Notes under the pieces: model-generated
Told to the model about the DNA's origin: nothing
The model's input: the letters and a program-made list of their open reading frames with translations, nothing else
The model's database searches: none
In this document: positions 1 through 44,511 of the stretch, piece by piece
How the letters are laid out: every line of letters starts with the position of its first letter
How positions within the stretch are numbered: position 1 is the stretch's first letter
Translations under genes and position numbers: made by a program
Virus record (IMG/VR): IMGVR_UViG_3300023223_001376
Span: 1-44,511 of that record
Origin: a virus
DNA length: 44,511 nt
Strand: one strand, 5' to 3'

Positions 1-144
1 ATTGGCGAAATCTCGCGGTAGAGGTTTGTAGAGGTATTTTGCTCTAAGTGATTGTTTTCATTAGACGTTGCACAAAAAATGTTTCTACGGGTCCTCTCTC
101 TGTTTTTTCTAGAGAGAAATGATTAGAGTTCGGTGTTGGTGTAA
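1..144. repeat. 144-bp terminal direct repeat, left copy
   Basis: Bases 1-144 are identical to 44368-44511. This is either a physical direct terminal repeat (T7-like podoviruses carry repeats of roughly this size) or the overlap left when a circularly permuted genome is assembled. The copy contains the left arm (18-40) of a long inverted repeat whose right arm (334-356) lies outside the duplicated part. Confidence 0.9.
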
Positions 145-182
145 GTCTAATTCTGTCTCAATATGAGACGATTTTATTGTTG

Positions 183-203
183 TTTTTTTTTTTTTTTTTT
201 TTT
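183..203 (+). repeat. 21-base poly-T homopolymer
   Basis: An uninterrupted run of 21 T begins 14 bases after hairpin 155-169 (stem GTCTCA/TGAGAC). On the plus strand this resembles a hairpin plus U-tract terminator, but the gap is long and the run much longer than usual. Its length may be unreliable, since homopolymers are error-prone in sequencing. Confidence 0.85.
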
Positions 204-393
204 CATAAACAACTACTCTATAGAATGCTTCATTCTATAGCATTTTCTCTATAGATAGAAAGCTCCTGAAAATCTAAGCCCCCGTGTAGAAACATTTTAT
301 TTTCAACTTTCAACGATTTCAATGGGTTGGGAGAAAATACCTCTACAAACCTCTACACGGCCATTTTCCTTGATCCTTGTAAGCTCCTTTTAA

Positions 394-600
394 TCAAAAG
401 GATAGAGGCACTTTCTCTTGGTGCCACCAGTGCATAACATTGCATAAGGTGTAGAGGTTTCGAGGTCTAACTTTTTTCCCCTTTATTGAAAGAAGGATTT
501 CTTGAACTTTTCGTAAATATCGAAAAGTTGAAAATGCCCTCTGAGGTTTTAAGCTCTTTCTTCCCTTTCCTCTTCCCTCCTGTATTCTTCCTCTAGCCAC
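394..600 (-). CDS. Hypothetical basic protein, doubtful
   Basis: A 68-codon frame that would start at GTG 600 and overlap the end of the upstream gene by 8 bases. The product is very basic (Arg/Lys-rich N-terminus) with no recognisable motif. I see no Shine-Dalgarno site before the GTG and the only internal ATG is near the C-terminus. It is the last leftward frame before the structured region. Kept only because it fills the gap in the expected orientation and overlaps its neighbour as true phage genes here often do. Confidence 0.3.
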   Translation of the reverse strand: MARGRIQEGRGKGRKSLKPQRAFSTFRYLRKVQEILLSIKGKKVRPRNLYTLCNVMHWWHQEKVPLSF

Positions 601-1692: not shown

Positions 1693-2355
1693 TTATAACC
1701 TCACTGGCATAAGAATTGCCGTTGCCGTTGTTCCTTTCCCATCATCGGCGGTTACTACCATTGACAGATGCTCTCCTAGTTTTTTGATACCATTCTCCTC
1801 ATCCATTCCGTCTTTTTTCAGATAAAGAGTGATGCAGTGATCTTTTTCCTCATACTTTTCTAAAAGCATACAGACCTCTTTTAAATAGCGGGCATTGACT
1901 CCTACCCTTTGATATTGGTCTGGATTTTTAAAATCTGGAATCACTTGCTCATAACTTGGAAACTTGCTGTCAACAGTTCTAGCCTCTACATTTTCGGTAT
2001 TATCCAAGTCCGTAGTTTGGCAGATTACTTTATCAGGATGCCCGGTTGGTACTACCTTTAAACCGATAGCCGCATTTTCTAGCACAGGTAAATCAGGTTT
2101 CTTAGGGATATTTTTTAAGGCTTTTTCGATGGTAGGGCGGTGAACGATAAAAGGCTTATCGTTTTCACTCCATTCCACGCCATTAGCCTGCCATTCCACC
2201 CCTTCCTCTGGCTCTGATTCAACATAGACAAGGCGGTGCCCATCGGTGGCCACCGTTTTATTGCCATCAAATAGAAGACCATACAAAGCCTGTCTCGATG
2301 GGTCTGTGGATGAAAATTTAATGATTTCTAGTTGTTTCTTATTGAATAATCGCAT
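1693..2355 (-). CDS. DnaN-like DNA sliding clamp, shortened
   Basis: The protein resembles the bacterial beta clamp (DnaN), the ring that tethers DNA polymerase to DNA. Residues 34-42 read TVATDGHRL, the domain II signature of DnaN; residues 128-140 read VDSKFPSYEQVIP, matching the conserved VDGRFPxYxxVLP stretch; the C-terminus is MPVRL, matching the MPMRL end of DnaN. DnaN is about 366 residues in three domains; this protein is 220 residues and begins at the equivalent of domain II, so domain I is absent. Its length is close to that of the two-domain trimeric clamps T4 gp45 and PCNA. AAGGAG precedes ATG 2355. I infer that it serves the phage family A polymerase (33409-35751) or competes for the host clamp site. 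Confidence 0.8.
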   Translation of the reverse strand: MRLFNKKQLEIIKFSSTDPSRQALYGLLFDGNKTVATDGHRLVYVESEPEEGVEWQANGVEWSENDKPFIVHRPTIEKALKNIPKKPDLPVLENAAIGLKVVPTGHPDKVICQTTDLDNTENVEARTVDSKFPSYEQVIPDFKNPDQYQRVGVNARYLKEVCMLLEKYEEKDHCITLYLKKDGMDEENGIKKLGEHLSMVVTADDGKGTTATAILMPVRL

Positions 2356-6664: not shown

Positions 6665-7027
6665 ATGCTTATCCAAATAGATGTAGAGGTTGGTGGTGGA
6701 GGCGGTGGTGGAGGAACAGGCGCTTTTACTGTAGAAGTTTTTCTTGGGATAACTCTAGGCCTTAAAGGTGATGATAATTTAAAGTTCTTTGTGATGGATA
6801 ATGCGTCAGAGCAAAACCCCATTGTTTCTAGTATAACTACTTTACCGATTGGTGCTGAGATAGAGTTTATAAAGCAGGGTACTGGACCTACTATTCGCTT
6901 TACCGCTACTCCACCTATGGTTATTCGATCCAGGGGCGGGTTGATAAAGATTGATGCCCGATATTCTACAGCTACACTTAAAAAAGTTGCTGTCGATGAG
7001 TGGAGATTGATAGGGGATTTGGTATGA
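6665..7027 (+). CDS. Fibre-type beta protein, tandem paralogue 2, 120 aa
   Basis: A 120-residue paralogue of the preceding gene, with the same GTGAF, DNLKFFVM, YSTATLKK and DEWRLIGDL landmarks. It differs by a run of glycines at residues 11-17 (GGGGGGG), which looks like a flexible hinge. The ribosome site is weak (GGAA). Its TGA overlaps the next gene's ATG. Confidence 0.7.
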   Translation: MLIQIDVEVGGGGGGGGTGAFTVEVFLGITLGLKGDDNLKFFVMDNASEQNPIVSSITTLPIGAEIEFIKQGTGPTIRFTATPPMVIRSRGGLIKIDARYSTATLKKVAVDEWRLIGDLV

Positions 7028-8943: not shown

Positions 8944-9450
8944 ATGACTCAAGTTGACCATGATAAAGATGAAGGAGCTAACGTAGAAACTAGAGTGCTA
9001 CTCTCTGAGAAAGAAATAGAAGAGAAGCGTCAATCGAAGCATTATGAGATGATCTATACTTATGTTAGAACAGGGTTAAGTAACAGAGAATTGGGGAACA
9101 TGTATGATATCTCAGAAGCTCATATACAACATATCAAAAGGACTTCTCTTTGGAAGAATGAAGAGGAACTTTTAAGAGCTTCTATGAGGAGAGATAATCA
9201 AGTTAGAATTGATCTCCTTGTTCCTATTGCTATTGATACCATCCAAGATGTTATGGAAGATGAGAGTAATTCTTCTACGGCTAGGGTAAACGCTGCTGGC
9301 AAAGCTCTAGAGATCGCAGAGTATGGTAGGGCTAAACCTGAGGGAGGAGTGGGAGGAAGGAATGTTACTCTTAACTTGACAAGGCCAGGATGGGATAAGG
9401 GAGGAGAGGGAAAGGGAGATACTATTAATATTCAGGTCAACGTAGATTGA
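8944..9450 (+). CDS. terS: Terminase small subunit
   Basis: A 168-residue DNA-recognition subunit of the packaging motor. Residues about 46-70 (GLSNRELGNMYDISEAHIQH) form a helix-turn-helix, followed by a helical central part with a repeated AIDTIQDVMED / ARVNAAGKALEIAEYG pattern as in TerS oligomerisation domains, and a Gly-rich tail that may contact TerL. AGGG precedes ATG 8944. Position just before the large subunit supports the call. Confidence 0.8.
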   Translation: MTQVDHDKDEGANVETRVLLSEKEIEEKRQSKHYEMIYTYVRTGLSNRELGNMYDISEAHIQHIKRTSLWKNEEELLRASMRRDNQVRIDLLVPIAIDTIQDVMEDESNSSTARVNAAGKALEIAEYGRAKPEGGVGGRNVTLNLTRPGWDKGGEGKGDTINIQVNVD

Positions 9451-17564: not shown

Positions 17565-18347
17565 ATGAGTATTTTAAATGAATTGCTGAGCGAGATGTTT
17601 GAGGTTGTAAGGGTATTGATTGGGATACCAACTGTAGGAGGAGTGCATCCAGCAGCTTATGATAATAGGCTAGAGATGATGAAATATTTAGGGATTGTGC
17701 AAGCTGCTTCTCATTATGGTAAGGATAAGTTTGAGGAGATTAAACTTCCTACCTTTGATAAGATGTTTAAGTTTGATGTCTATGTAATAGGGAGGGTATT
17801 GACTCCTATTGCGAGGGAGAATTTAGCTCAGAGAGCAGTTGATGAAGGTTATGATTATCTCCTCTTCATAGACGATGATATGCTCACCCCTCAAGATTTG
17901 TTCTTTCATCTCTACAAGCACAAGAAGGATATAGTAGCAGCACTAGCGTTTACTAGAAACTATCCTCACCGTCCTGTGATCTACCGATTGGATAAGGGAT
18001 TTGAGGATGGGAAGCCTTGGTATTCTAACTATGCTATCCTAGACTATCCAAAGGATTCACTTGTTAAATGTGATGCAGTAGGATTTGGCGCTGTTCTCAT
18101 TGACACGAAGGTATTCAAGGGTATGAAAGGGAAGTGGTTTGCTACTACAAGTGGAAGAGGAGAGGATATCTTCTTCTGCCATCAAGCGGGTGAGCAAGGA
18201 TTTGAGATATATATGGACACCACAGTTAAACTAGGACATCTAGGTGATCCTATCAACATAGATGAGAAATACTATGAGGAGATGCCTGAAAGTAAGATTA
18301 AGGAGTTGAGGGATGCCCTTCCTGAGAAGAAGGGGGTGGAGATATGA
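17565..18347 (+). CDS. GT-A type glycosyltransferase
   Basis: A 260-residue protein with a nucleotide-sugar-transferase layout: RVLIGIPTVGGVHPA at residues 16-30, then the metal-binding DDD at 103-105 (LLFIDDDM), followed by an acceptor-side CDAVGFGAVLIDTKVF region and GRGEDIFFCHQA, which resembles the late acidic motif. Known relatives transfer sugars from nucleotide donors in the cytosol. It opens a three-gene glycosyltransferase set in the head operon and overlaps the next gene by 4 bases. I infer a virion protein, most simply the capsid, as target. Confidence 0.8.
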   Translation: MSILNELLSEMFEVVRVLIGIPTVGGVHPAAYDNRLEMMKYLGIVQAASHYGKDKFEEIKLPTFDKMFKFDVYVIGRVLTPIARENLAQRAVDEGYDYLLFIDDDMLTPQDLFFHLYKHKKDIVAALAFTRNYPHRPVIYRLDKGFEDGKPWYSNYAILDYPKDSLVKCDAVGFGAVLIDTKVFKGMKGKWFATTSGRGEDIFFCHQAGEQGFEIYMDTTVKLGHLGDPINIDEKYYEEMPESKIKELRDALPEKKGVEI

Positions 18348-19537
18348 GAGAGCCTATTGATGTAATCATCCCCACTTATGATAATCTAGATCAACTTTTC
18401 CAGTGTGTCTCCTCTGTTCTAAGGACTCAGAAAGAGTATCCTTTGAGGATCATAGTAGTGAATAATGGTTCATATCCTTTAGAGGGAGTGTTACCGAAGG
18501 AAGTTAAGATAGTAAACCCTGCTGGGAACAAGGGCTGGACAGGTGGGCTGAAGTTAGGAGTTGATATCAGCGTTAGTTCCTCTTCTTCCTATGTCGTTTT
18601 TTTAAATGATGATACTTATGTCCCCCTATGCTCAGTGTCTTGGTTGAGGGACATGGTTAGAGTCTTGGATACCACGCCTCTCTGTGGTGCTATAGGCCCA
18701 AGCTCTAACTGTGTTTCGGGTTATCAAAATATCTGGAGTCCCCCCTTTGTTACTAAGATTGAAGTCCCATTCCTAATTGGATTTTGTAAGGTGGTGAGGA
18801 GAAAGGCTCTGGAGGAGATTGGGGGGATAGATGAGAGGTGGGTACATGGGGATGATCTTGATTTGTCTTTGAGAATGAGAAAGAGAGGATATGGATTAAT
18901 GTGTTTGAAGAGTACCTTCATATATCATCATGGTTTCCAGACAGGTGAGAAGTTGTTTGGAGGTAGGGAGAAAAAGGGAGGATGGAACTCTCAGGAGCAA
19001 GTTGAGAATACTAACATCTCAGTAATAAAGGAGCATGGATTCTTGAGTTGGTGGGAGATGTATGCGGGGGAGTGGACTCGTCTTCTCAATGGGCCTAGTA
19101 AGGATATTGAGGGAGATATGGTTAGAGAGCTTTGTGAGGGTATTGATCCTAGTATGATCCTTGACATAGGATGTGGGGAGGCTCTTACAGTTAAAGGTAG
19201 TAGGGGATTAGATAGGAAGAGAGATGGAGTAGATTTCAATGAGGGAATATGTATAAAGAAGCATTCCTTTGATGTTATTATAGCTCGTCACATCCTTGAA
19301 CATCTTGATAAGCCAGATGAGAGGATTAGAGAATGGATGCAGCTCTTGATTATAGGCGGTAAGTTGATAATCTGTTGCCCTAATGAGGATATCAATGATA
19401 CAATCCCAATGGACAAGACTCATAAGCATGCTTTCTCTCCCTCCTATCTAACTCATCTAGTAGTTAGTTGTGGAGGACGTGTAACACTGGAGAGAGAGGA
19501 GATTAATGGGATATCATTCCTATTAGTAGTAGAATAA
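18344..19537 (+). CDS. Family 2 glycosyltransferase fused to an SAM methyltransferase domain
   Basis: Residues 1 to about 230 form a GT2 domain: IDVIIPTYDNLDQLFQCVSS at the start, IIVVNNG, NKGWTGGLKLG and the metal motif FLNDD (D89-D90), with GGIDERWVHGDDLDLSLRMR downstream. Residues from about 270 form a class I methyltransferase: MILDIGCGEALTV (D274), then FDVIIARHILEHL and GGKLIICCPNED. Such a fusion could add a sugar and methylate it, or methylate a glycan acceptor. The ATG overlaps the upstream stop by 4 bases. Confidence 0.85.
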   Translation: MREPIDVIIPTYDNLDQLFQCVSSVLRTQKEYPLRIIVVNNGSYPLEGVLPKEVKIVNPAGNKGWTGGLKLGVDISVSSSSSYVVFLNDDTYVPLCSVSWLRDMVRVLDTTPLCGAIGPSSNCVSGYQNIWSPPFVTKIEVPFLIGFCKVVRRKALEEIGGIDERWVHGDDLDLSLRMRKRGYGLMCLKSTFIYHHGFQTGEKLFGGREKKGGWNSQEQVENTNISVIKEHGFLSWWEMYAGEWTRLLNGPSKDIEGDMVRELCEGIDPSMILDIGCGEALTVKGSRGLDRKRDGVDFNEGICIKKHSFDVIIARHILEHLDKPDERIREWMQLLIIGGKLIICCPNEDINDTIPMDKTHKHAFSPSYLTHLVVSCGGRVTLEREEINGISFLLVVE

Positions 19538-27073: not shown

Positions 27074-29077
27074 ATGCCTCAACTAAAAGTTAAGCAAATA
27101 GAAACCTTAAAGACTCTCCAAGAGAAATTTACAAGAGGGGATATTCTAAGTATAAAGGAGGAACAAGCTCTATCTCTAGCAGAAGAGGAAGGATTAATAG
27201 AGAAGAGAGGTATTTTAGAGAGTGTAGGAACTCAGTTTAGAGGGGAGAAGAGGAAGGCGACTGGAGTTACGGGAATATCTTTACTTCAAGAAGTTAGTGG
27301 TGCGGGTGGAGGGTTAAAGGCTGGAGCAAAGCTAGCTTCCAAACTACCCCTTCCCTTACCTCTTAAGGCTATTGGTGCGGTTGGAGGAGCTATGGGTGGA
27401 AATATATTAGCTCAGTTAGGGATTCAAGGTAAGGAGGAAATTGATACTAAAGAGACTGCTATGTCTGGGCTACTTGAAGCAGTCTTTCCCGTGGTAGGAA
27501 AGGCAGTTGTATCAGGGTTTAAATCTGCGGGAAAAGGTGTTGTGAGTGTAGTTAAGAGGCGGGTTGGTCAGGATATTGGTAAGTCCAGGATTCTTCAAAG
27601 ACTAGCTGGAGCGAGTTCTAGGCCGGCACCCTTTAAAAGTCCTGTTGCCAAAGACTTAGCTAGAGAGACTCAAAAGGCTGGAATAGTTGTGCCACTAGCA
27701 GCAGTGTTTGAAGGGAAACTCCTTTCCACTATGGACTCTCTTGCTTCTAAGTCTCTGACTGGTAGTCTAGGTATGGCCAAGCAGACTAGAACTACTCAAG
27801 AATTGCTGGAAAGTAGTATAGAGGCCTTTGCTACGAAGTTTACACTAAGTGCTTCTCCTCTAGAGATAGCCAAGCAACTGCATAAGGCTTTGAATGATGA
27901 TCTTACAACCTTTACGAGTTTAAGGAATAAGATGGTTAATAGGCTAGATATCGCAGCTTTAGGACGAGAAGGAGCTAAGATTGATCTAAGCTTTATGGGG
28001 AGGGAAAGCGTAAGTTTTAAGGAGGCTCTTAGTATCCTAAAGGCTACTAAAAGTAGGAAGTTTATTTCTAAGATAAAGGGAGCGATGTTGAAGAGTGCTA
28101 AACGACTCGATTCGACTCCTATCACCGTCGATCCGGATGTAGCTAAAGCAGCTTTTCCAGAGAACTCATTCTTAGCTAAGGAGTTAGCAGAGATAGAAGC
28201 CAGACAGACTCTCCAATCCTCTGGGAGCTTTATAGAGGATGTTAGAATAGCCTTAGGCTTGACTGATAAGATGGGAGCAAAGTTTAACCAAACTATTATA
28301 AAGCGACTGGCTAACACCAACCCGGAGGAGCTGCTTGACTTACTACTCTCTACAGGAAGGCCAGATACCGTTAGAACTCTTTTTAGAATGAAGGATATTG
28401 ATGGTAAACCCCTCCTAAGTGAGGATACAAAGGATGGTATTAGGGCAGTTTTCCTAGGACTTAAAGGAGAGGGTGGAGGATTACTTTCAAGAGCTTCTGA
28501 GACTGTTGGTGCAGTTACTATAATTGATGGTAAAAAGCTTCTGGCGGATATCGCTAAATTTGAGAAGTTACTTGGAAAGGGAGCTTCTATGGCCTTGTTC
28601 CCTGGTACTGGTCTGCAAGGAGTGAAGAGATTTGGTAGGATGCTTGAAGTTTTACAAAGTTCTAGAGGAGAAGGGTCTGGAGCTATGGCATTGTTCCTCC
28701 AAACTCCGGGAGCTGTTGCCTCTATCGCTATAACAGTAGCTGGGGCCGTTGCAGGTGAAGATGTATTGAACACTACTACCATGTTAGGCTTAGCAGGAGC
28801 AGGTACTATATTACTTGGACCTAAGGCTCTTACTAAGATGCTTACTAATCCTAAGACCTTTGAAGCCTTTGCAAAAGGATTTGAGAAGAGGTTAAAGAGA
28901 CCAGATGATCTTACTTTTTACCTTAGCACTATTGCTGCGCAAATGGCTAAGGATGGTGATGATGTTCAGTTTGTAGATCAGGAAGAGACAGAGGAACTCA
29001 TTGATATGCAGAGAAAGCAACAACTAAGAGAGACTCAACAAGGATTGTTAGAGAGAATTGGGAACGCACCTATTTAA
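27074..29077 (+). CDS. Internal virion / ejection protein 3 with hydrophobic segments
   Basis: A 667-residue, mainly helical protein. Hydrophobic Gly/Ala-rich segments occur near residues 90-115 (PLPLPLKAIGAVGGAMGG) and 540-590 (PGAVASIAITVAGAVAGEDV, MLGLAGAGTILLGPKAL), suitable for insertion into the host envelope. No lysozyme or protease signature seen. Third of three consecutive ejection-type proteins; T7 and P22 also use three. Confidence 0.7.
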   Translation: MPQLKVKQIETLKTLQEKFTRGDILSIKEEQALSLAEEEGLIEKRGILESVGTQFRGEKRKATGVTGISLLQEVSGAGGGLKAGAKLASKLPLPLPLKAIGAVGGAMGGNILAQLGIQGKEEIDTKETAMSGLLEAVFPVVGKAVVSGFKSAGKGVVSVVKRRVGQDIGKSRILQRLAGASSRPAPFKSPVAKDLARETQKAGIVVPLAAVFEGKLLSTMDSLASKSLTGSLGMAKQTRTTQELLESSIEAFATKFTLSASPLEIAKQLHKALNDDLTTFTSLRNKMVNRLDIAALGREGAKIDLSFMGRESVSFKEALSILKATKSRKFISKIKGAMLKSAKRLDSTPITVDPDVAKAAFPENSFLAKELAEIEARQTLQSSGSFIEDVRIALGLTDKMGAKFNQTIIKRLANTNPEELLDLLLSTGRPDTVRTLFRMKDIDGKPLLSEDTKDGIRAVFLGLKGEGGGLLSRASETVGAVTIIDGKKLLADIAKFEKLLGKGASMALFPGTGLQGVKRFGRMLEVLQSSRGEGSGAMALFLQTPGAVASIAITVAGAVAGEDVLNTTTMLGLAGAGTILLGPKALTKMLTNPKTFEAFAKGFEKRLKRPDDLTFYLSTIAAQMAKDGDDVQFVDQEETEELIDMQRKQQLRETQQGLLERIGNAPI

Positions 29078-29096
29078 GGGGGAGGGTAATTGAAGG

Positions 29097-29378
29097 ATGG
29101 AAGAACTTTTCGGTACGTCAGGGTTGGCTGTAATAGGATTCTTGATAGCTACACTAGTTTTAACATGGAGAATCCTATGGAAGGGTCTCCTAGATAGAAT
29201 GGATAGACTTGATGTTAAGATGGGAAAAATGCATGAGAAGCTGGATACGCATCTTGGGACTAACTATGAGGATAGAGATAAGTTTGTTCTTAAAACCTAC
29301 ATAGAGACCGATATAAAACCTTGGATAAAAAGTATTGAAGGTAAGGTGCAAAAATTAGTGGAGAAGGTTAATCTTTAA
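29097..29378 (+). CDS. Single-span membrane protein, holin-like
   Basis: A 93-residue protein with one transmembrane helix at about residues 8-24 (SGLAVIGFLIATLVLTW), followed by an amphipathic/coiled-coil stretch (LLDRMDRLDVKMGKMHEKLD) and a charged end. Last gene of the late operon. The layout fits a class III-type holin or an inner-membrane spanin component; neither is proven. Its last 11 bases overlap the convergent gene. Confidence 0.6.
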   Translation: MEELFGTSGLAVIGFLIATLVLTWRILWKGLLDRMDRLDVKMGKMHEKLDTHLGTNYEDRDKFVLKTYIETDIKPWIKSIEGKVQKLVEKVNL

Positions 29379-29399
29379 GGAGTGAATAAACCTCTCCAC
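29358..29399. terminator. Bidirectional terminator at the convergent gene ends
   Basis: GTGGAGA-A-GGTT (29358-29369, one bulged A) pairs with AACCTCTCCAC (29389-29399). On the plus strand CTTTTG follows; on the minus strand TAATTTTTG follows. Stop codons of both convergent genes lie in this hairpin, so both transcripts would end here. Confidence 0.75.
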
Positions 29400-30612
29400 C
29401 TTTTGCTGAGTATCCCCTTTCAATAGTTCTCTGCTCAATCAAAGTCCCTAGAATCTCCTTCAACTCCTTTGTGTTGACATATCTACTTATACTTTGGAGC
29501 ATTTTATGGTAGGGGAGGGGATAGTTCTTCCCTCTTCTCCTTGCCCTTTTCATGATGTCAATAACTCGGTCAAAATGCTTTGATTGTTTCGAGTATAGTC
29601 CCCCTCTAAAAGCCTTAGGCATGAGGACTTCTGCCTTCTTTAATATAGTAAGGGCAGTTGAGATATGCCACTCTTCTATCTTTAAGTCCTCCTTACTCAC
29701 TCGGTGGAAGTCTCCACTTGATAAGCACATAGCTATTTTAAGAACATGATCCTGCTTCCTCCCAGCATATCCCCTCAACCTAGTATCATCTTCTTCCATC
29801 CTCTTAGTATACCAATTTTTGAACAATTCTCTCCCCTCCTCAGTCCACTTGAATCCTCCCTGAAATCCTCTCATCCTCGTTGATAGATCATTAAACAGAA
29901 AGGGTCGTAGGGACTTCTCCTCAGCTGGAGCCTCACCAAAAGGATTTGTGAGTCTTGGTCTATCCCCTACTATGAACATAACTCTCCCAGTAAAGCCCCC
30001 TTCAATAGCATCGGCAGGGAGATTAGTAGCCATCCAGTCTAGAGTAGTAGCTCCAAGTAGATTGATACAAGGTTGCTTGATGATATCATTCCCAGCCGTC
30101 TTCGTCTTAACTACATATAAAGAGGGGCAGGTGTATAGAGAGGTAAGGAGAGGGATAATTCCTGTTTTGAATGAGTCTGCTCCAAAGAACGTAGCAAGCT
30201 CTGTGACAAAGATGAGGACAAAATTAGGATTTATCATCTGCTCCTTACAAAGCTCTTTAGTAAGCATTTGCGGAGTCATAGAATCCTGAATGATATTAAT
30301 GAGGTGTTCATCTACAAAGAAGGAGTCCCTAGCCTTTTCAATCGCTGTACTCTTTCTACAATAGGCACTTTCCGCAACTACTATGATGTACTGGTTAGGG
30401 TAGAGGTTATAACCAGTATCTCTAGGCATCCATACCCTCCGGTTCAGAACACTTGAAATAGTTGATAGCCCAGTCCATACATGGAAGCTGGAGGGAGACT
30501 CTAGGGAGTTTGTGAATCCTAGGTATTGATACAGCCAGTTTTCCTTTGGTAGTTTTGCTAGTCCTTCTTCTGCTAAGTCTACATTAGTGATCTTACTTAT
30601 TAGTTTATCCAT
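29368..30612 (-). CDS. DUF3987-like P-loop protein (primase/helicase-associated)
   Basis: A 414-residue protein with the DUF3987/YfjI-type layout: FHVWTGLSTISSVLNRRVWM, then YPNQYIIVVAESAYCRKSTA at about residues 71-90, which sits where the Walker A loop belongs, then VLIFVTELATFFG in the Walker B place. The loop has CRKS rather than GKS/T, a form seen in phage members. Relatives sit in replication modules and are thought to be helicase- or primase-linked. It is the last gene of the leftward arm. Confidence 0.75.
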   Translation of the reverse strand: MDKLISKITNVDLAEEGLAKLPKENWLYQYLGFTNSLESPSSFHVWTGLSTISSVLNRRVWMPRDTGYNLYPNQYIIVVAESAYCRKSTAIEKARDSFFVDEHLINIIQDSMTPQMLTKELCKEQMINPNFVLIFVTELATFFGADSFKTGIIPLLTSLYTCPSLYVVKTKTAGNDIIKQPCINLLGATTLDWMATNLPADAIEGGFTGRVMFIVGDRPRLTNPFGEAPAEEKSLRPFLFNDLSTRMRGFQGGFKWTEEGRELFKNWYTKRMEEDDTRLRGYAGRKQDHVLKIAMCLSSGDFHRVSKEDLKIEEWHISTALTILKKAEVLMPKAFRGGLYSKQSKHFDRVIDIMKRARRRGKNYPLPYHKMLQSISRYVNTKELKEILGTLIEQRTIERGYSAKGGEVYSLLKD

Positions 30613-32696: not shown

Positions 32697-33030
32697 CTTC
32701 TATCCTTGTTGAATGGGCCTTAGTTTCCATAATCTGTCGCTGCCTATATCCATTGATAAACCCTTCATTGTATTTCTCAATTACTTTACCTTTTAGTTCT
32801 TTGATCTTACCCTCTGCATCCCAATTAGTTCTTTCTACTGTTACTTTTAAGCTTTCTGCTTCTTCTTCAACTAAATGGTTGTAACTACGCAGACTATCTA
32901 CCGTTGCGATCAAACGATGAAGCTTTATCTTTACGGAATCTGGGATATGGACCTCTCCAGCTTCATACGGCTTATTCAACCATTCTTCCAACTCCTTCAT
33001 CTCCTCATCTGTATAAGGTGAGTCTTCCAT
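32659..33030 (-). CDS. Coiled-coil hypothetical protein, 123 aa
   Basis: Start set at ATG 33030 (GAGGAGG 6 bases upstream); an in-frame ATG at 33093 with AGGA is a weaker alternative that adds 21 residues. The protein is rich in Glu and Lys with a coiled-coil-like middle (IKLHRLIATVDSLRSYNHLV EEEAESLKVTV). No enzymatic motif. Confidence 0.65.
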   Translation of the reverse strand: MEDSPYTDEEMKELEEWLNKPYEAGEVHIPDSVKIKLHRLIATVDSLRSYNHLVEEEAESLKVTVERTNWDAEGKIKELKGKVIEKYNEGFINGYRQRQIMETKAHSTRIEDDTEDRRRTDIK

Positions 33031-33064
33031 CTTATCCTCCTCTTTCGCTGCCAAGAATGAAGCC

Positions 33065-33133
33065 CACTGAGAGGCTGTACTCGGTTGTTGCATTGACCGA
33101 TCCTAAAGCCTCACGACAATAGACCTCTCAGTG
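33065..33133. repeat. 10-bp perfect inverted repeat around an intergenic junction
   Basis: CACTGAGAGG (33065-33074) and CCTCTCAGTG (33124-33133), 49 bases apart. One arm covers the stop codon of 33128-33394. No T-run follows, so it is not a simple terminator. Confidence 0.45.
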
Positions 33134-33394
33134 AACACCTTTATTGGAGTTTATCTTTTTTAGAGCTACTTCCAACTTCTCGATACGCTCACAAATCAGC
33201 TCTTTTTGCTTACATTCAAATATACTCTTTAAAGTTTTATTATCCTCCATCAGTTTCTCTAGTGGAGTCACAGTTGAATTTTTGTTCGCTCCGCTAAGAT
33301 TTATTTCAAACTCCCATAATTCTTGAATACGATTACTAGCGTAAATTTGAGCCTCTGTGGAAATTTCAACATATAAAGCATTCAATTCTTTCAT
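33128..33394 (-). CDS. Hypothetical helical protein, 88 aa
   Basis: Start set at ATG 33394, which has AAAAGGAGAG upstream. An 88-residue, helical, Glu/Lys-rich protein (EKLMEDNKTLKSIFECKQKE) with no catalytic motif. It directly follows the DNA polymerase gene and could be an accessory factor; that is inference from position only. Confidence 0.65.
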   Translation of the reverse strand: MKELNALYVEISTEAQIYASNRIQELWEFEINLSGANKNSTVTPLEKLMEDNKTLKSIFECKQKELICERIEKLEVALKKINSNKGVH

Positions 33395-33408
33395 TTTAAT
33401 CTCTCCTT

Positions 33409-35751
33409 TTAAGCCATCTTCCAATTCTTCCCTATATCAATATCAACTGGGATAACAACTTCCCTCCCATTTATGTAAAGTGGCTGCATCAACTCCTCTC
33501 TTACAATCCTCTCCACCTCTTCCTTATCTTTTTCTAAGAATTGAATGACAAGCTCATCATGGCATTGAATGAGTATGGTTGAAGTCTCCGGTAGACGATG
33601 GAACATCCGCACTCCCGCTAGGTTGATGTGATCGCAAGCTGTCCCTTGTGGCTCATTTGCATAAGCAGCCTTAAAAAGGTCTCCTTTCTGCTCCTCCTCT
33701 TCCTTCCAAGTGGGCCATCTCTCATAAAAGATGCGCCTTCTACCTAGAGGATTGATAAGGGTTCGGCTCTCTTTTAATTGGTCAATGACCCTCTGCCACC
33801 ATTTCTTAAGATCAAACATTCTGTAATATTGCTCAAGAAGTTCTTTACATCTTTTTAAAGTAAACCCAGTCTCCTCCTGTAGCCTCTTAGCTGAAATGTG
33901 GTAGTTAGCAGAGTGACCTGTTTTCTTCCCCTCTTTTCTCTCAAACGTACCCTTACCACAATCCTCATAATCCTTGCCATGTAGCATTGCTCCCACCATA
34001 GAATGAATATCTTTACCTTCCTTAAAGGTCTGCATCATAATTTTATCTTCTGAGATGTAAGCTACAAGTTGGTTCTCAGCTTGACAGAGATCAACCTTTA
34101 GAAATAGATATCCTTCGTCTGCTATGAAGATATCTCTAATCTCTCCCGGTATGTTTTGGAGTTGTAGTCCTGTCCCTCTTATGTTCTGAGTTGATGAGAG
34201 CCTACCAGTTTTAGCTCCGGTGATCTTGAAGGAGGCATGGCACCTACCATCCTCATCCCAAAAATCATGGAGGTAGGTTGATAGGAGCTTCCTTTGTCCT
34301 CTAATATCTAGGATTAAGTTAAACAAGGGATTAGGGAAAGATCGGTTGAGCTTCTGCAAGGCTTTCTCATCCACTGTCCTAACCTTCTTCTTTTCCCCCG
34401 TTTTTGTAATCGAGAGTTTGAACTGGGGAGGGTAGCCTAACTCCTGATAGATGAGTTTACACATCTTAGTAGGAGAGTTTATATCAGGCAAGTAGCCAAC
34501 TTCTTTAGTAAGTAGATCTTCTAATCTTTTAACCTCAATCTCTGCCTCCTTTTGGTATTCCCTCACCCTATCCTTATTTATTAACACCCCTGTGTGGGAG
34601 GCCCTCCACAGCATCCTACCTAGGGGCATCTGGAATCCGTGGAGGAAATTGTGTAGCGAGTCCTCTTTTAACCTCTCCTCCAGATATTCATAAATTTGAA
34701 AAGTTACATCATTATCCTTGCAGTTATAGAGGTATAGAGCCTCAGGATCATAATTTGCATCATGAGCCTCTGTTTTATAGTAGGGATCATCTGTGTAGAT
34801 GGAGGTTTGAACAGCGAGAGCCTTTTTAATCTCAGGTAGGTATAGGTGGGAGGCAATCATTGTATCCATGTAAACAGGGTGAATTTCACCAATGTAGGGG
34901 AAAAGCATCTCCATTTCAAAACTCATGTTTTGGATGATTTTTCTAATATTCGTAGATGTAAGGATATTTCGAATCTGTGTCCACAACTTAGATTCTTGAT
35001 CTACGCTCCAGAAGGGTTTCCCTTTCTCCACGATGGGGATACATACAGCACTATGGCTTCTAATACTAAAACCAATACATTTAATAATATCCGTGTATTT
35101 GTAGGTTTCAATGTCGATAGCAAGTGCTTTAGACTCCATAGCACTAGAAAGCCAGTCCTGTGCATCTCTAAACTCGGTGAATGTTTTATAATCTTTTTTT
35201 ATATAGGTAATTCCCTTTATTTCGCTCTCCTTCTTGATCTTAAGGAAATCGAAAAGCATAAGAGGTGAATCTCCCCATGATCTCATTATAAAAGCAGGAT
35301 GGAGAGTGGGGATCACCTTGACAGGAGTCCCATCTCTACCTATTGATGGATAAGATGGTATGATAGAGCCTCTCCAGTTTGTAATCTTATCCTTCTCCCT
35401 CACTCCCTTCCCCGTTATAGCCTTTAATGCTACGTTCCCTAGGGGGACTATGACGTTTGGGTTTAGTTGTCTAAGTTCCCTTCTAAGCTCCTCCTCACAC
35501 TCCTCTAACTTCAATCCTATTTCATGCAGTTTGTGAAGGTTATTATTAGGTGGGCGATATTTTATCACATTAGTTATGTAGCATTGACTCCTCTCAACTC
35601 CTGCCTCCCTCATTATCTGAGTTAAGAGGGTACCTGAGGCTCCAGTGAAAGGGACTCCTGTCTCATCCTCCTCCCTACCTGGTGCCTCTCCCACAAGGAC
35701 TATCTTAGCATCTATCGGCCCAACCGGCTCAACTCTACGAGGTTTGTTCAT
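33409..35751 (-). CDS. Uracil-DNA glycosylase / family A DNA polymerase fusion
   Basis: Residues 1 to about 190 form a UDG-superfamily (family 4-like) domain: VGEAPGREEDETGVPFTG from residue 20, NVIKYRPP, and a late HPA motif. A 3'-5' exonuclease domain follows with DIE at 213-215. The polymerase part has motif A around D554 (KVDLCQAENQ, usually DYSQIE), motif B with H613 and Y617 (GHSANYH; Tyr at the Pol I F762 position) and motif C HDE at 731-733. At 780 residues it lacks a 5'-3' exonuclease. UDG-PolA fusions are known in some phages. It is the replicative enzyme; its start overlaps the upstream stop (ATGA). Confidence 0.92.
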   Translation of the reverse strand: MNKPRRVEPVGPIDAKIVLVGEAPGREEDETGVPFTGASGTLLTQIMREAGVERSQCYITNVIKYRPPNNNLHKLHEIGLKLEECEEELRRELRQLNPNVIVPLGNVALKAITGKGVREKDKITNWRGSIIPSYPSIGRDGTPVKVIPTLHPAFIMRSWGDSPLMLFDFLKIKKESEIKGITYIKKDYKTFTEFRDAQDWLSSAMESKALAIDIETYKYTDIIKCIGFSIRSHSAVCIPIVEKGKPFWSVDQESKLWTQIRNILTSTNIRKIIQNMSFEMEMLFPYIGEIHPVYMDTMIASHLYLPEIKKALAVQTSIYTDDPYYKTEAHDANYDPEALYLYNCKDNDVTFQIYEYLEERLKEDSLHNFLHGFQMPLGRMLWRASHTGVLINKDRVREYQKEAEIEVKRLEDLLTKEVGYLPDINSPTKMCKLIYQELGYPPQFKLSITKTGEKKKVRTVDEKALQKLNRSFPNPLFNLILDIRGQRKLLSTYLHDFWDEDGRCHASFKITGAKTGRLSSTQNIRGTGLQLQNIPGEIRDIFIADEGYLFLKVDLCQAENQLVAYISEDKIMMQTFKEGKDIHSMVGAMLHGKDYEDCGKGTFERKEGKKTGHSANYHISAKRLQEETGFTLKRCKELLEQYYRMFDLKKWWQRVIDQLKESRTLINPLGRRRIFYERWPTWKEEEEQKGDLFKAAYANEPQGTACDHINLAGVRMFHRLPETSTILIQCHDELVIQFLEKDKEEVERIVREELMQPLYINGREVVIPVDIDIGKNWKMA

Positions 35752-38043: not shown

Positions 38044-38754
38044 CTATTTTAAAAGCATACTTTTAATATCCTGGAAGTTCATCTTGATGTGGGTAGTGGA
38101 GTCTCCTTTGTCTAAAACTCTGCTCTTAGCCATGTGAAGGCTAGTTGGTCTTATCCGTAGTTGATAGATGCTATCTTTCCCCTTATCTAAAATCTCACTG
38201 TGGTATACTTCGTCAAAGTAATGAGCTGCTTTAGTCTTCCCCTGCCCAGTTAGAGAGGGGTGGAAGAAGGCTCTCCCAGTATCATCTTGATCGAATGCCT
38301 CTCCACATATAAACAAAGTGTTTTTGGTTGAGCCCCTTACTAGTGCGATATAGTTTAAGGCCCATTCCCATAAGAGAGTCCATTTCTTAAATCCATCTTG
38401 CTTTCCTTGTTGACTGACTGTTAGAGCAGGTTGAGCCTCAATAGCTCCAAGCATTGCATCATAAATCCCTGAGAATGAGTCAATTATGATAGAATCGTGC
38501 TCTGAGGAGCTCATGGCGAGACCTGTGGCCTTCTTAATATCCTGCCACCACCCTAATTTATTTTCCCTCCTTTTGCAACTTAGGAATGAGATGTCCTTCT
38601 TCCTAACACTTAGAAGTCCGGCTTCTGTATCTATGAAAATGGGGCTAGGAAAAGTAGAGCCTAAGACTGTCTTCCCGGTCCCTGCCTTCCCATAGATGAG
38701 AACATCTATCTTGTGCGAGTCTAGCTTAATGTCTTTCATTTGCTGTATTTCCAT
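38044..38754 (-). CDS. RecA/Sak4-like ATPase (AAA_24 type)
   Basis: A 236-residue P-loop protein with Walker A GKAGTGKT at 22-29 (VLIYGKAGTGKT) and Walker B SIIIDS with D92, then ALNYIALVRGSTKNTLFICG. The compact RecA-like core matches the Sak4/phage AAA_24 group, single-strand annealing ATPases that act with an SSB. GAGGAG precedes ATG 38754. It probably works with the SSB-like protein and RecB-like nuclease in recombination-dependent replication. Confidence 0.82.
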   Translation of the reverse strand: MEIQQMKDIKLDSHKIDVLIYGKAGTGKTVLGSTFPSPIFIDTEAGLLSVRKKDISFLSCKRRENKLGWWQDIKKATGLAMSSSEHDSIIIDSFSGIYDAMLGAIEAQPALTVSQQGKQDGFKKWTLLWEWALNYIALVRGSTKNTLFICGEAFDQDDTGRAFFHPSLTGQGKTKAAHYFDEVYHSEILDKGKDSIYQLRIRPTSLHMAKSRVLDKGDSTTHIKMNFQDIKSMLLK

Positions 38755-41551: not shown

Positions 41552-42457
41552 CTATGTTTTTATTAGGTTTCCTGTTCCCTGCCCTCCCTTCTCCTCATCT
41601 CTTGCACCGGGATAGGGCTCCCACTTATCCTCTTCATAAAGAGTAGAGAGCATAGAGGGATAGATGGAGCTTGATTGAGAGTGTTTACAAAGATAGAGGA
41701 ACTCACAACCTCCATATTGGGAGCAATTATCAGTATTCTTGGGAAAGAAATCTGTGGAGAAGCATTCCTTAATCCACTTGATAACTCTTCTAATATCTCT
41801 TAACCATTCTTCTTTCAAATAAGCTCTATCAAAAGATGCCTTCTCCCTTGTATACTTGATTTGGTGTTTTGTGAAATAGATTTGATTGATTATCCCTCCA
41901 TCTACCTCTTCTCCTGTCATTTCTTGAAGCGAGTAGGAGTAACCAGCGAGTTGATGGTTCGGTTTGGTAGTTAGGAAGCCACTCCAGCCAGTGGTTTTGT
42001 GATCGAGGGGAGATAGGATACGTGTTGATTTAGCTCTAACTGCTAGGTCAACCTTTCCTATGAAGAGGACCTCTTCGGTTTCCTCACATGAGATATCTAC
42101 AGCGATTTCAAGCTCGGCTCCTTTTGCATAAACCACTTCCCAATTTTCTTGGTCGATGGGATGAAGTTTTATGTAATCTTCGATGATGGTGAGGCCCTTT
42201 AAAAGGTTACGAATGCCCTTAGGATCATCCCCCTCATAAGGTAGCCAGTACTCGGTGAAGGCTATTTTACATTGTTCAAGAGTACCACCATCATAATACT
42301 TCTGCAAACCTGCATGGATGGCAGAGCCAAACTCAGCCTTGAACTTATTGCTCTTATCTTTACTTGTTAAATGGAGAGCATATCTTAGAAAAAACTTACG
42401 GGGGCATCCTTGAAATTCTCGGATCATTGAGTTATCATACTTAGTGAGGGGGCGCAT
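41552..42457 (-). CDS. RecB/Cas4-like PD-(D/E)XK nuclease with Fe-S-type cysteines
   Basis: A 301-residue nuclease: FGSAIHAGL (H48), GKVDLAV (D137) and LDHKTT (D152, K154) are the catalytic residues of the RecB/Cas4-like PD-(D/E)XK family. C18 (GCPRKF) and three C-terminal Cys (CSQYGGCEFLYLC) match the four-Cys iron-sulfur site of AddB/Cas4 relatives. Probably processes DNA ends in recombination-dependent replication or degrades host DNA. AAAGAGG precedes ATG 42457; no CRISPR is present. Confidence 0.85.
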   Translation of the reverse strand: MRPLTKYDNSMIREFQGCPRKFFLRYALHLTSKDKSNKFKAEFGSAIHAGLQKYYDGGTLEQCKIAFTEYWLPYEGDDPKGIRNLLKGLTIIEDYIKLHPIDQENWEVVYAKGAELEIAVDISCEETEEVLFIGKVDLAVRAKSTRILSPLDHKTTGWSGFLTTKPNHQLAGYSYSLQEMTGEEVDGGIINQIYFTKHQIKYTREKASFDRAYLKEEWLRDIRRVIKWIKECFSTDFFPKNTDNCSQYGGCEFLYLCKHSQSSSIYPSMLSTLYEEDKWEPYPGARDEEKGGQGTGNLIKT

Positions 42458-42490
42458 ACTAACCTCTTTGAAGGATATGGACGGAAAACG

Positions 42491-42540
42491 AAAAAAGAGA
42501 TGGTTTTTAACCTAGAATTTTCTAGAATAAAAACCATCTC
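42491..42540 (-). terminator. Rho-independent terminator downstream of the tRNA
   Basis: GAGATGGTTTTTA pairs with TAAAAACCATCTC (42497-42509 with 42528-42540), with an inner CTAGAA/TTCTAG, and on the minus strand a run of six T (42496-42491) follows. It ends transcripts from the tRNA and the gene before it, upstream of the RecB-like nuclease. Confidence 0.8.
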
Positions 42541-42580
42541 GATCTTTTGTTATTACTTTGTTAGGAAAGGAACAGGTTCA

Positions 42581-42632
42581 GGTAGGTTTAAGTTAAAGAA
42601 TCCCTCCATGTAGTACTCAACTTAAACCTACC
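42581..42632 (-). repeat. 14-bp perfect inverted repeat downstream of the tRNA
   Basis: GGTAGGTTTAAGTT (42581-42594) and its complement (42619-42632), 24 bases apart. No T-run follows on the minus strand. It would form a stable hairpin between the tRNA and the terminator, possibly a processing signal. Confidence 0.7.
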
Positions 42633-42671: not shown

Positions 42672-42746
42672 TAGCCCCAGCGGGATTCGAACCCGTATCG
42701 TCGGCGTGAAAGGCCGATGTCCTGGGCCAGCCTAGACGATGGGGCC
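42672..42746 (-). tRNA. tRNA-Glu (anticodon UUC)
   Basis: Reading leftward from 42746: acceptor GGCCCCA pairs with TGGGGCT (G1-U72 wobble), D-arm GTCTAGG...GGCCCAGGAC, anticodon stem CGGC/GCCG around CTTTCAC (anticodon TTC at 42710-42708), and T-arm CGGGTTCGAATCCCG with an A-C mismatch at its base. This matches bacterial tRNA-Glu. No CCA is encoded (TATC follows). It is 10 bases after the stop of 42757-43095. Confidence 0.85.
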
Positions 42747-44127: not shown

Positions 44128-44367
44128 ATTCTTGACTCCTTTTCGTTATTAGATTAGTAGATGAAAAGTATTAGATTTACATACAAAACTTCTTTAAGTG
44201 TTGGAGAAGGTGATTCTCCAAAGTCAGCTATAAGATAGCTTCTCCACCTATCTTGTGGCTTGGAGGGGTAGGAGATGGGGATGAGGAAGGGATTGTTATG
44301 CAACCTTATGCAATTGCATAAGGTTTGGAGGGGGTTGTAGGTTATTGATTCCATAGTAGTTAGGGAT
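44128..44367. other. Intergenic region with a 24-bp palindrome
   Basis: No supported gene. A perfect 24-bp palindrome centred on CAATTG (44302-44325) contains two inverted TGCATAAGG elements; a third, TTATGCAACC, lies at 44296-44305. Related TGCATAA elements occur at 433-449 across the circular junction. Confidence 0.7.
44302..44325. repeat. 24-bp perfect palindrome
   Basis: AACCTTATGCAA is followed directly by its reverse complement. It is 42 bases from the right terminal repeat. It may be an operator, a replication initiator site or a recombination site. Confidence 0.9.
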
Positions 44368-44511
44368 ATTGGCGAAATCTCGCGGTAGAGGTTTGTAGAG
44401 GTATTTTGCTCTAAGTGATTGTTTTCATTAGACGTTGCACAAAAAATGTTTCTACGGGTCCTCTCTCTGTTTTTTCTAGAGAGAAATGATTAGAGTTCGG
44501 TGTTGGTGTAA
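44368..44511. repeat. 144-bp terminal direct repeat, right copy
   Basis: Identical to bases 1-144. See the left copy for interpretation. Confidence 0.9.

Follow-up and report, generated by a model that had tools for sequence, protein, structure and literature searches.

In the herpes simplex origins oriS and oriL and in the archaeal ORB origins, inverted initiator sites flank an A+T-rich core. To our knowledge, most environmental phages have no mapped origin. Iteron origins, such as phage lambda ori and those of iteron plasmids, combine short initiator-binding repeats, often in helical phase, with an adjacent A+T-rich unwinding element (available text of PMC5043065). In mitochondrial OriL, a stem-loop, primer synthesis begins at a T-stretch in the loop (available part of PMC4256270). 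The PaMx41/PaP2 group of Pseudomonas phages (Jamesmcgillvirus, Fredfastierviridae) has the same PolA plus DUF3987-type module and the same genome layout as the virus considered here. However, the inverted repeat of PaMx41 (42480-42583) is just 22 nt long and has no A/T tract. No description of an element such as the one reported below was found in a limited search of the literature.

The stretch analysed (the window) is an entire viral contig of 44,511 nt, IMG/VR record IMGVR_UViG_3300023223_001376. It contains a long dyad-symmetric element with the following parts and flanking repeats.

18..88, plus strand: left dyad arm, 71 nt; outer part 18-40 and inner part 76-88 perfect, 41-75 imperfect but in register
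286..356, plus strand: right dyad arm, 71 nt
18..37, plus strand: two iteron-like repeats, 10 bp apart (GTAGAGGTTT, GTAGAGGTAT); periodicity p 0.023
337..356, minus strand: the same two repeats (GTAGAGGTTT, GTAGAGGTAT), inverted, in the right arm
451..460, plus strand: fifth exact repeat copy, outside the arm
44296..44323: outer repeats, two TTATGCA 10 bp apart and one TGCATAA; contains the 20-bp palindrome CCTTATGCAATTGCATAAGG
431..449: outer repeats on the opposite side, two TGCATAA 10 bp apart
95..170, plus strand: three small loop hairpins of the predicted fold (95-117, 121-152, 154-170)
179..213, plus strand: apical hairpin; 7-bp stem 179-185/207-213, 21-nt loop of 18 T plus CAT
217..255, plus strand: loop hairpin of the predicted fold
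1..144: terminal direct repeat, identical to 44368-44511, where the contig ends overlap

The arms are as the first-pass annotation had described them: 18-40 and 334-356, as well as 76-88 and 286-298, are exact reverse complements, and the spacers between them (41-75 and 299-333) are both 35 nt long. Ungapped extension yields imperfect arms of 71 nt that are 76% complementary. The inverted repeat scores 37 (matches minus mismatches) and is the best in the genome, where the runner-up scores 18; the best repeat across 40 first-order genome resamples scores 20. The 21-T run, also reported earlier, lies at 183-203 and is the sole run of at least 8 A or T within the window. The loop hairpins, on the other hand, had been counted as four, and the minimum-energy fold has the five listed above, plus a weak stem at 256-276. 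The GC content of the loop is 0.32, compared to 0.41 genome-wide. The apical hairpin with its T21 is a candidate site of unwinding or priming.

Exact matches to GTAGARGTWT occur six times in the genome, five of them at the element (18, 28, 337, 347, 451) and the other at 6731. The element region has five copies of TTATGCA/TGCATAA against 0.17 expected, and the two groups of outer repeats are about symmetric round one centre (188 versus 187, by arithmetic). As in iteron-type origins, short and often helix-phased repeats lie beside an A+T-rich element in the window and its relatives: in the window, the direct repeats are helically phased, and T21 and the A+T-rich loop adjoin them. Unlike iteron-type origins, the repeats here are mirrored on both sides, within arms mostly of 40-100 nt, the cores are often homopolymers within a hairpin, and a general link to DnaA was not found. 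Indeed, TTATNCACA DnaA boxes are absent from the element of the window and present in only two of 23 elements, and a host-DnaA origin was rejected as a general rule on these counts. The herpes and ORB origins share the inverted sites round an A+T-rich core, with unrelated replication proteins; the sequences of the present elements, in contrast, differ between phages.

The element had been placed at a genome end. This was not borne out: positions 1-144 are identical to 44368-44511, and thus the contig is self-closing, with its cut next to the element. The self-overlap fits a circular or circularly permuted map cut at this point. The role of a protected linear end, suggested in the first-pass annotation, was rejected because of this closure. 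On the closed map the element occupies a 406-nt gap (44355-393, GC 0.35), and the examined part of it, 1-393, has no open reading frame of more than 36 amino acids. It is surrounded by the early genes of the leftward block, and the divergent point is about 5 kb away. The early region also carries a tRNA-Glu gene (anticodon ttc, 42672-42746, minus strand). In the rightward block, positions 18344-19537 encode one protein with both a family-2 glycosyltransferase domain and a methyltransferase domain.

The replication proteins of the window are encoded as follows.

29368..30612, minus strand: DUF3987 protein with a predicted MCM-like AAA+ fold (Pfam E 1e-11; model pLDDT 89.9)
33409..35751, minus strand: family-A DNA polymerase fused to an N-terminal uracil-DNA glycosylase-like (superfamily) domain
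38044..38754, minus strand: AAA_24 ATPase
41552..42457, minus strand: PD-(D/E)XK exonuclease
1693..2355, minus strand: RusA-like resolvase match (PHROG)

DUF3987 domains have been predicted to be helicases of mobile elements (available portion of PMC5862659). The best PDB matches of the predicted DUF3987 model, built from 36 sequences, are MCM proteins, with Z up to 20.4 at about 10% identity. The sequence profile reaches MCM3 at E 0.02 only, and therefore we claim a predicted MCM-type AAA+ fold and not membership of the MCM family. Going by the model, the protein is a candidate origin-opening helicase. In the PaMx41 record, its homologue is annotated as similar to archaeal Orc2. The module of PolA with the uracil-glycosylase-like domain, DUF3987, AAA_24 and PD-(D/E)XK is common, whole or in part, to a number of named phages, including MW202489, OP947158, PP438425, MW202554, BK063670, MF497422 and the PaMx41 group. 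The best inverted repeat in each of MW202489, PP438425, MW202554 and BK063670 is a long one in the early region.

A profile of the polymerase retrieved 80 viral loci, and 33 records were then examined. The common pattern is a pair of long inverted arms round an A/T tract, in sequence unrelated to that of the window. In 30 related genomes, 20 of 123 A/T tracts (17 distinct sites) are spanned by an inverted repeat scoring at least 17. No such repeat spans any of the 581 tracts of third-order resampled sequence, or any of the 156 tracts in a control set of 42 loci (525 kb) selected by terminase similarity. Of 40 genomes that encode a DUF3987-type protein, 24 have the element, compared to none of five that lack the protein (Fisher p 0.017), but the genomes were picked by polymerase or primase similarity and the score threshold was set after the first examples had been seen, and thus the control counts outweigh this p-value. 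The 24 include G002, added by hand from the junction of its contig ends; L055, which has neither a DUF3987-type protein nor the element, was left out and is outside the 45 genomes. An earlier Pfam-based split (20 of 30 versus 3 of 15 genomes with the element) was replaced because Pfam had missed diverged DUF3987 proteins. The remaining 16 of the 40 genomes, PaMx41 among them, have no element at the threshold. Carriers available in culture include Microcystis phage Mel-JY34 and Vibrio phage vB_VspS_VS-ABTNL-3.

The closest relative of near-full length is G002. The break in its contig falls at an A24 tract, and each contig end carries one of the arms, which are 83 nt long and score 53. In G005, G009, G013 and G021 the A/T tracts are at or near contig ends or have weak arms, and these genomes were scored as having no element. 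L059 was counted by its weaker second repeat (score 17), its larger repeat having no tract of the kind sought, and the long repeats of L110 and L135, without A/T tracts, were not counted. Two repeats of L057 (EBPR podovirus 3) were excluded on visual inspection, being likely artefacts from linkers. They are near-identical GCGGCCGC-containing palindromes, at 9395-9446 and 29047-29103, probably cloning or assembly linkers in the public record.

Most elements have A/T tracts of at least 7 in their loops; L054, L059, L067 and L081 have mixed A/T cores, not homopolymers. Repeats spaced 8-12 bp are significant (p at most 0.05) in 12 of 24 arms, and the other 12 have no clear periodicity. The L081 family (L239, G011, L241, L242, L245) has mirrored arrays of an 11-bp unit, GTAGAAGTWTG, around an AT-only core. 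This unit is close to the GTAGAGGTWT of the window. Many units are nearly invariant, and pairing of the arms outside them is often broken. As judged from these sequences, conservation in the family appears to track the repeats rather than the base pairs.

The position of the elements on the map is also similar. Computed distances from the divergent point of the gene arms are 0.1-4.9 kb for 21 of 23 elements; the remaining two, in L052 (13.3 kb) and L059 (7.7 kb), lie within about 2 kb of it by annotation. The convergent point is 14-20 kb away for 22 of 23, and 11 kb away in the shorter contig G011. In the leftward genes of the window, the coding-strand GC3 skew is -0.10 to the right of the element (from the divergent point to the element) and +0.14 to the left, and none of 5000 random gene sets was as low. 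However, the change of skew is nearer to 41.5 kb than to the element. The best position of a skew model for the window is about 2.6 kb off, and the fit at the element is equalled or bettered at 27% of positions. Over 24 genomes, the best origin of the model is within 0.15 half-genome of the element in nine (KS p 0.051). Thus the evidence from skew is mixed, and the skew-based origin is weakly tied to the element.

The best and simplest account of these observations is a dyad-symmetric, iteron-type replication origin, which we predict, as probable, from architecture, linkage and position. The anatomy is observed, as are its recurrence with the replication module and its usual location close to the divergent point. 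Of the roles proposed in the first-pass annotation, the origin is accordingly the one best supported. The short repeats, about one helical turn apart and mirrored on either side of the A/T core (in the window, T21 in a small hairpin), would be bound as inverted sites by an initiator, either the DUF3987 MCM-like helicase or another partner. The core might then open or be extruded as a hairpin, a helicase would load there, and the family-A polymerase would replicate outward. Binding, opening and initiation at the element are inferred.

One alternative is a single-strand priming origin resembling mitochondrial OriL, in which the displaced strand would fold into the long hairpin and a primer would start at the T tract of the loop; the place would be the same and the mechanism different. 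Most of T21 is indeed in the 21-nt loop above the 7-bp stem of the predicted fold, tracts in the loops are the rule among the elements, and the OriL primer begins at just such a stretch (in the available text of PMC4256270). However, the four mixed cores do not suit this mechanism, and neither do the varying strand of the tracts, which on the early-sense strand are T in 14 elements and A in six (binomial p 0.12), and the scarcity of compensated changes in the paired arms of the L081 family. The arms here are also far longer than those of OriL and contain phased repeats. We consider a priming origin of this type unlikely. Another alternative is a role in regulation or packaging close to the divergent point: an operator array, or a pac or terminus site, could likewise have phased inverted repeats, and most elements are in a suitable position. 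On the other hand, the occurrence of the element follows that of the replication proteins, whereas its carriers have large terminases with little resemblance to each other (15-21% identity to the first of five), and in the window it is inside the leftward block, some 5 kb off the divergent point. We consider this explanation rather improbable.

It is still less probable, indeed very unlikely, that the element is a structured non-coding RNA of the early operon, although the first-pass annotation had offered a regulatory RNA as one role and the predicted folds are strong on both strands. Folded as RNA, the region has z-scores of -7.3 (plus strand) and -8.3 (minus strand), and folded as DNA, -8.9; none of 100 shuffles matched the native fold. 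However, Rfam models matched only a tRNA in the window (42672-42746) and nothing at the element. The tract strand is not fixed, which is unlike a transcribed RNA element. In four elements, early-sense mismatches comprise 12 G.U and 11 A.C, that is, no bias to an RNA strand. In the L081 family (five sequences), the one family scored for compensated changes, just 4 of the 109 pairs predicted between the arms differ on both sides, and covariation contributes a term of +7.76, where positive values are penalising.

Close relatives spanning the element of the window were sought in viral_contigs, genome_contigs and phages, and none was found. In viral_contigs there was no match for the protein encoded at 895-1386, the exonuclease, the exact 23-mer or a sequence pattern. 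The PolA search of that set led to L006 (5.2 kb), and the terminase search gave 43 loci of which only L007 is close (4.1 kb, 94%); both contigs are too short to reach the element. A blastn search of 1-1500 against phages and a PolA search of genome_contigs gave no matches.

It is quite possible, though somewhat short of probable, that the elements represent a widespread and so far undescribed class of virus origins, with long mirrored arms, a homopolymer A/T loop, an MCM-like DUF3987 opener and copying by a family-A polymerase, in which the architecture is kept and the sequence is freely replaced. The class would include phages of bacteria and possibly vir526, a virus assigned to methanogenic archaea. 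With an architecture that is recognisable even where the sequence is not conserved, origins could be predicted in the large group of phages with PolA and a DUF3987-type protein, and the MCM-like phage helicase would be singled out as a candidate for testing. The element also offers a reason for contigs to break or be cut at long A/T tracts.

Two further observations concern the related contigs. Breaks in several contigs from environmental phages coincide with an A/T tract or are close to one, as in L144 (at 1-24) and at the contig ends of G009, G013 and G021. In L054, the middle of the annotated terminase (32887-34542) matches mycobacteriophage proteins, one of which is annotated as intein-containing, and thus the terminase probably contains an intein.
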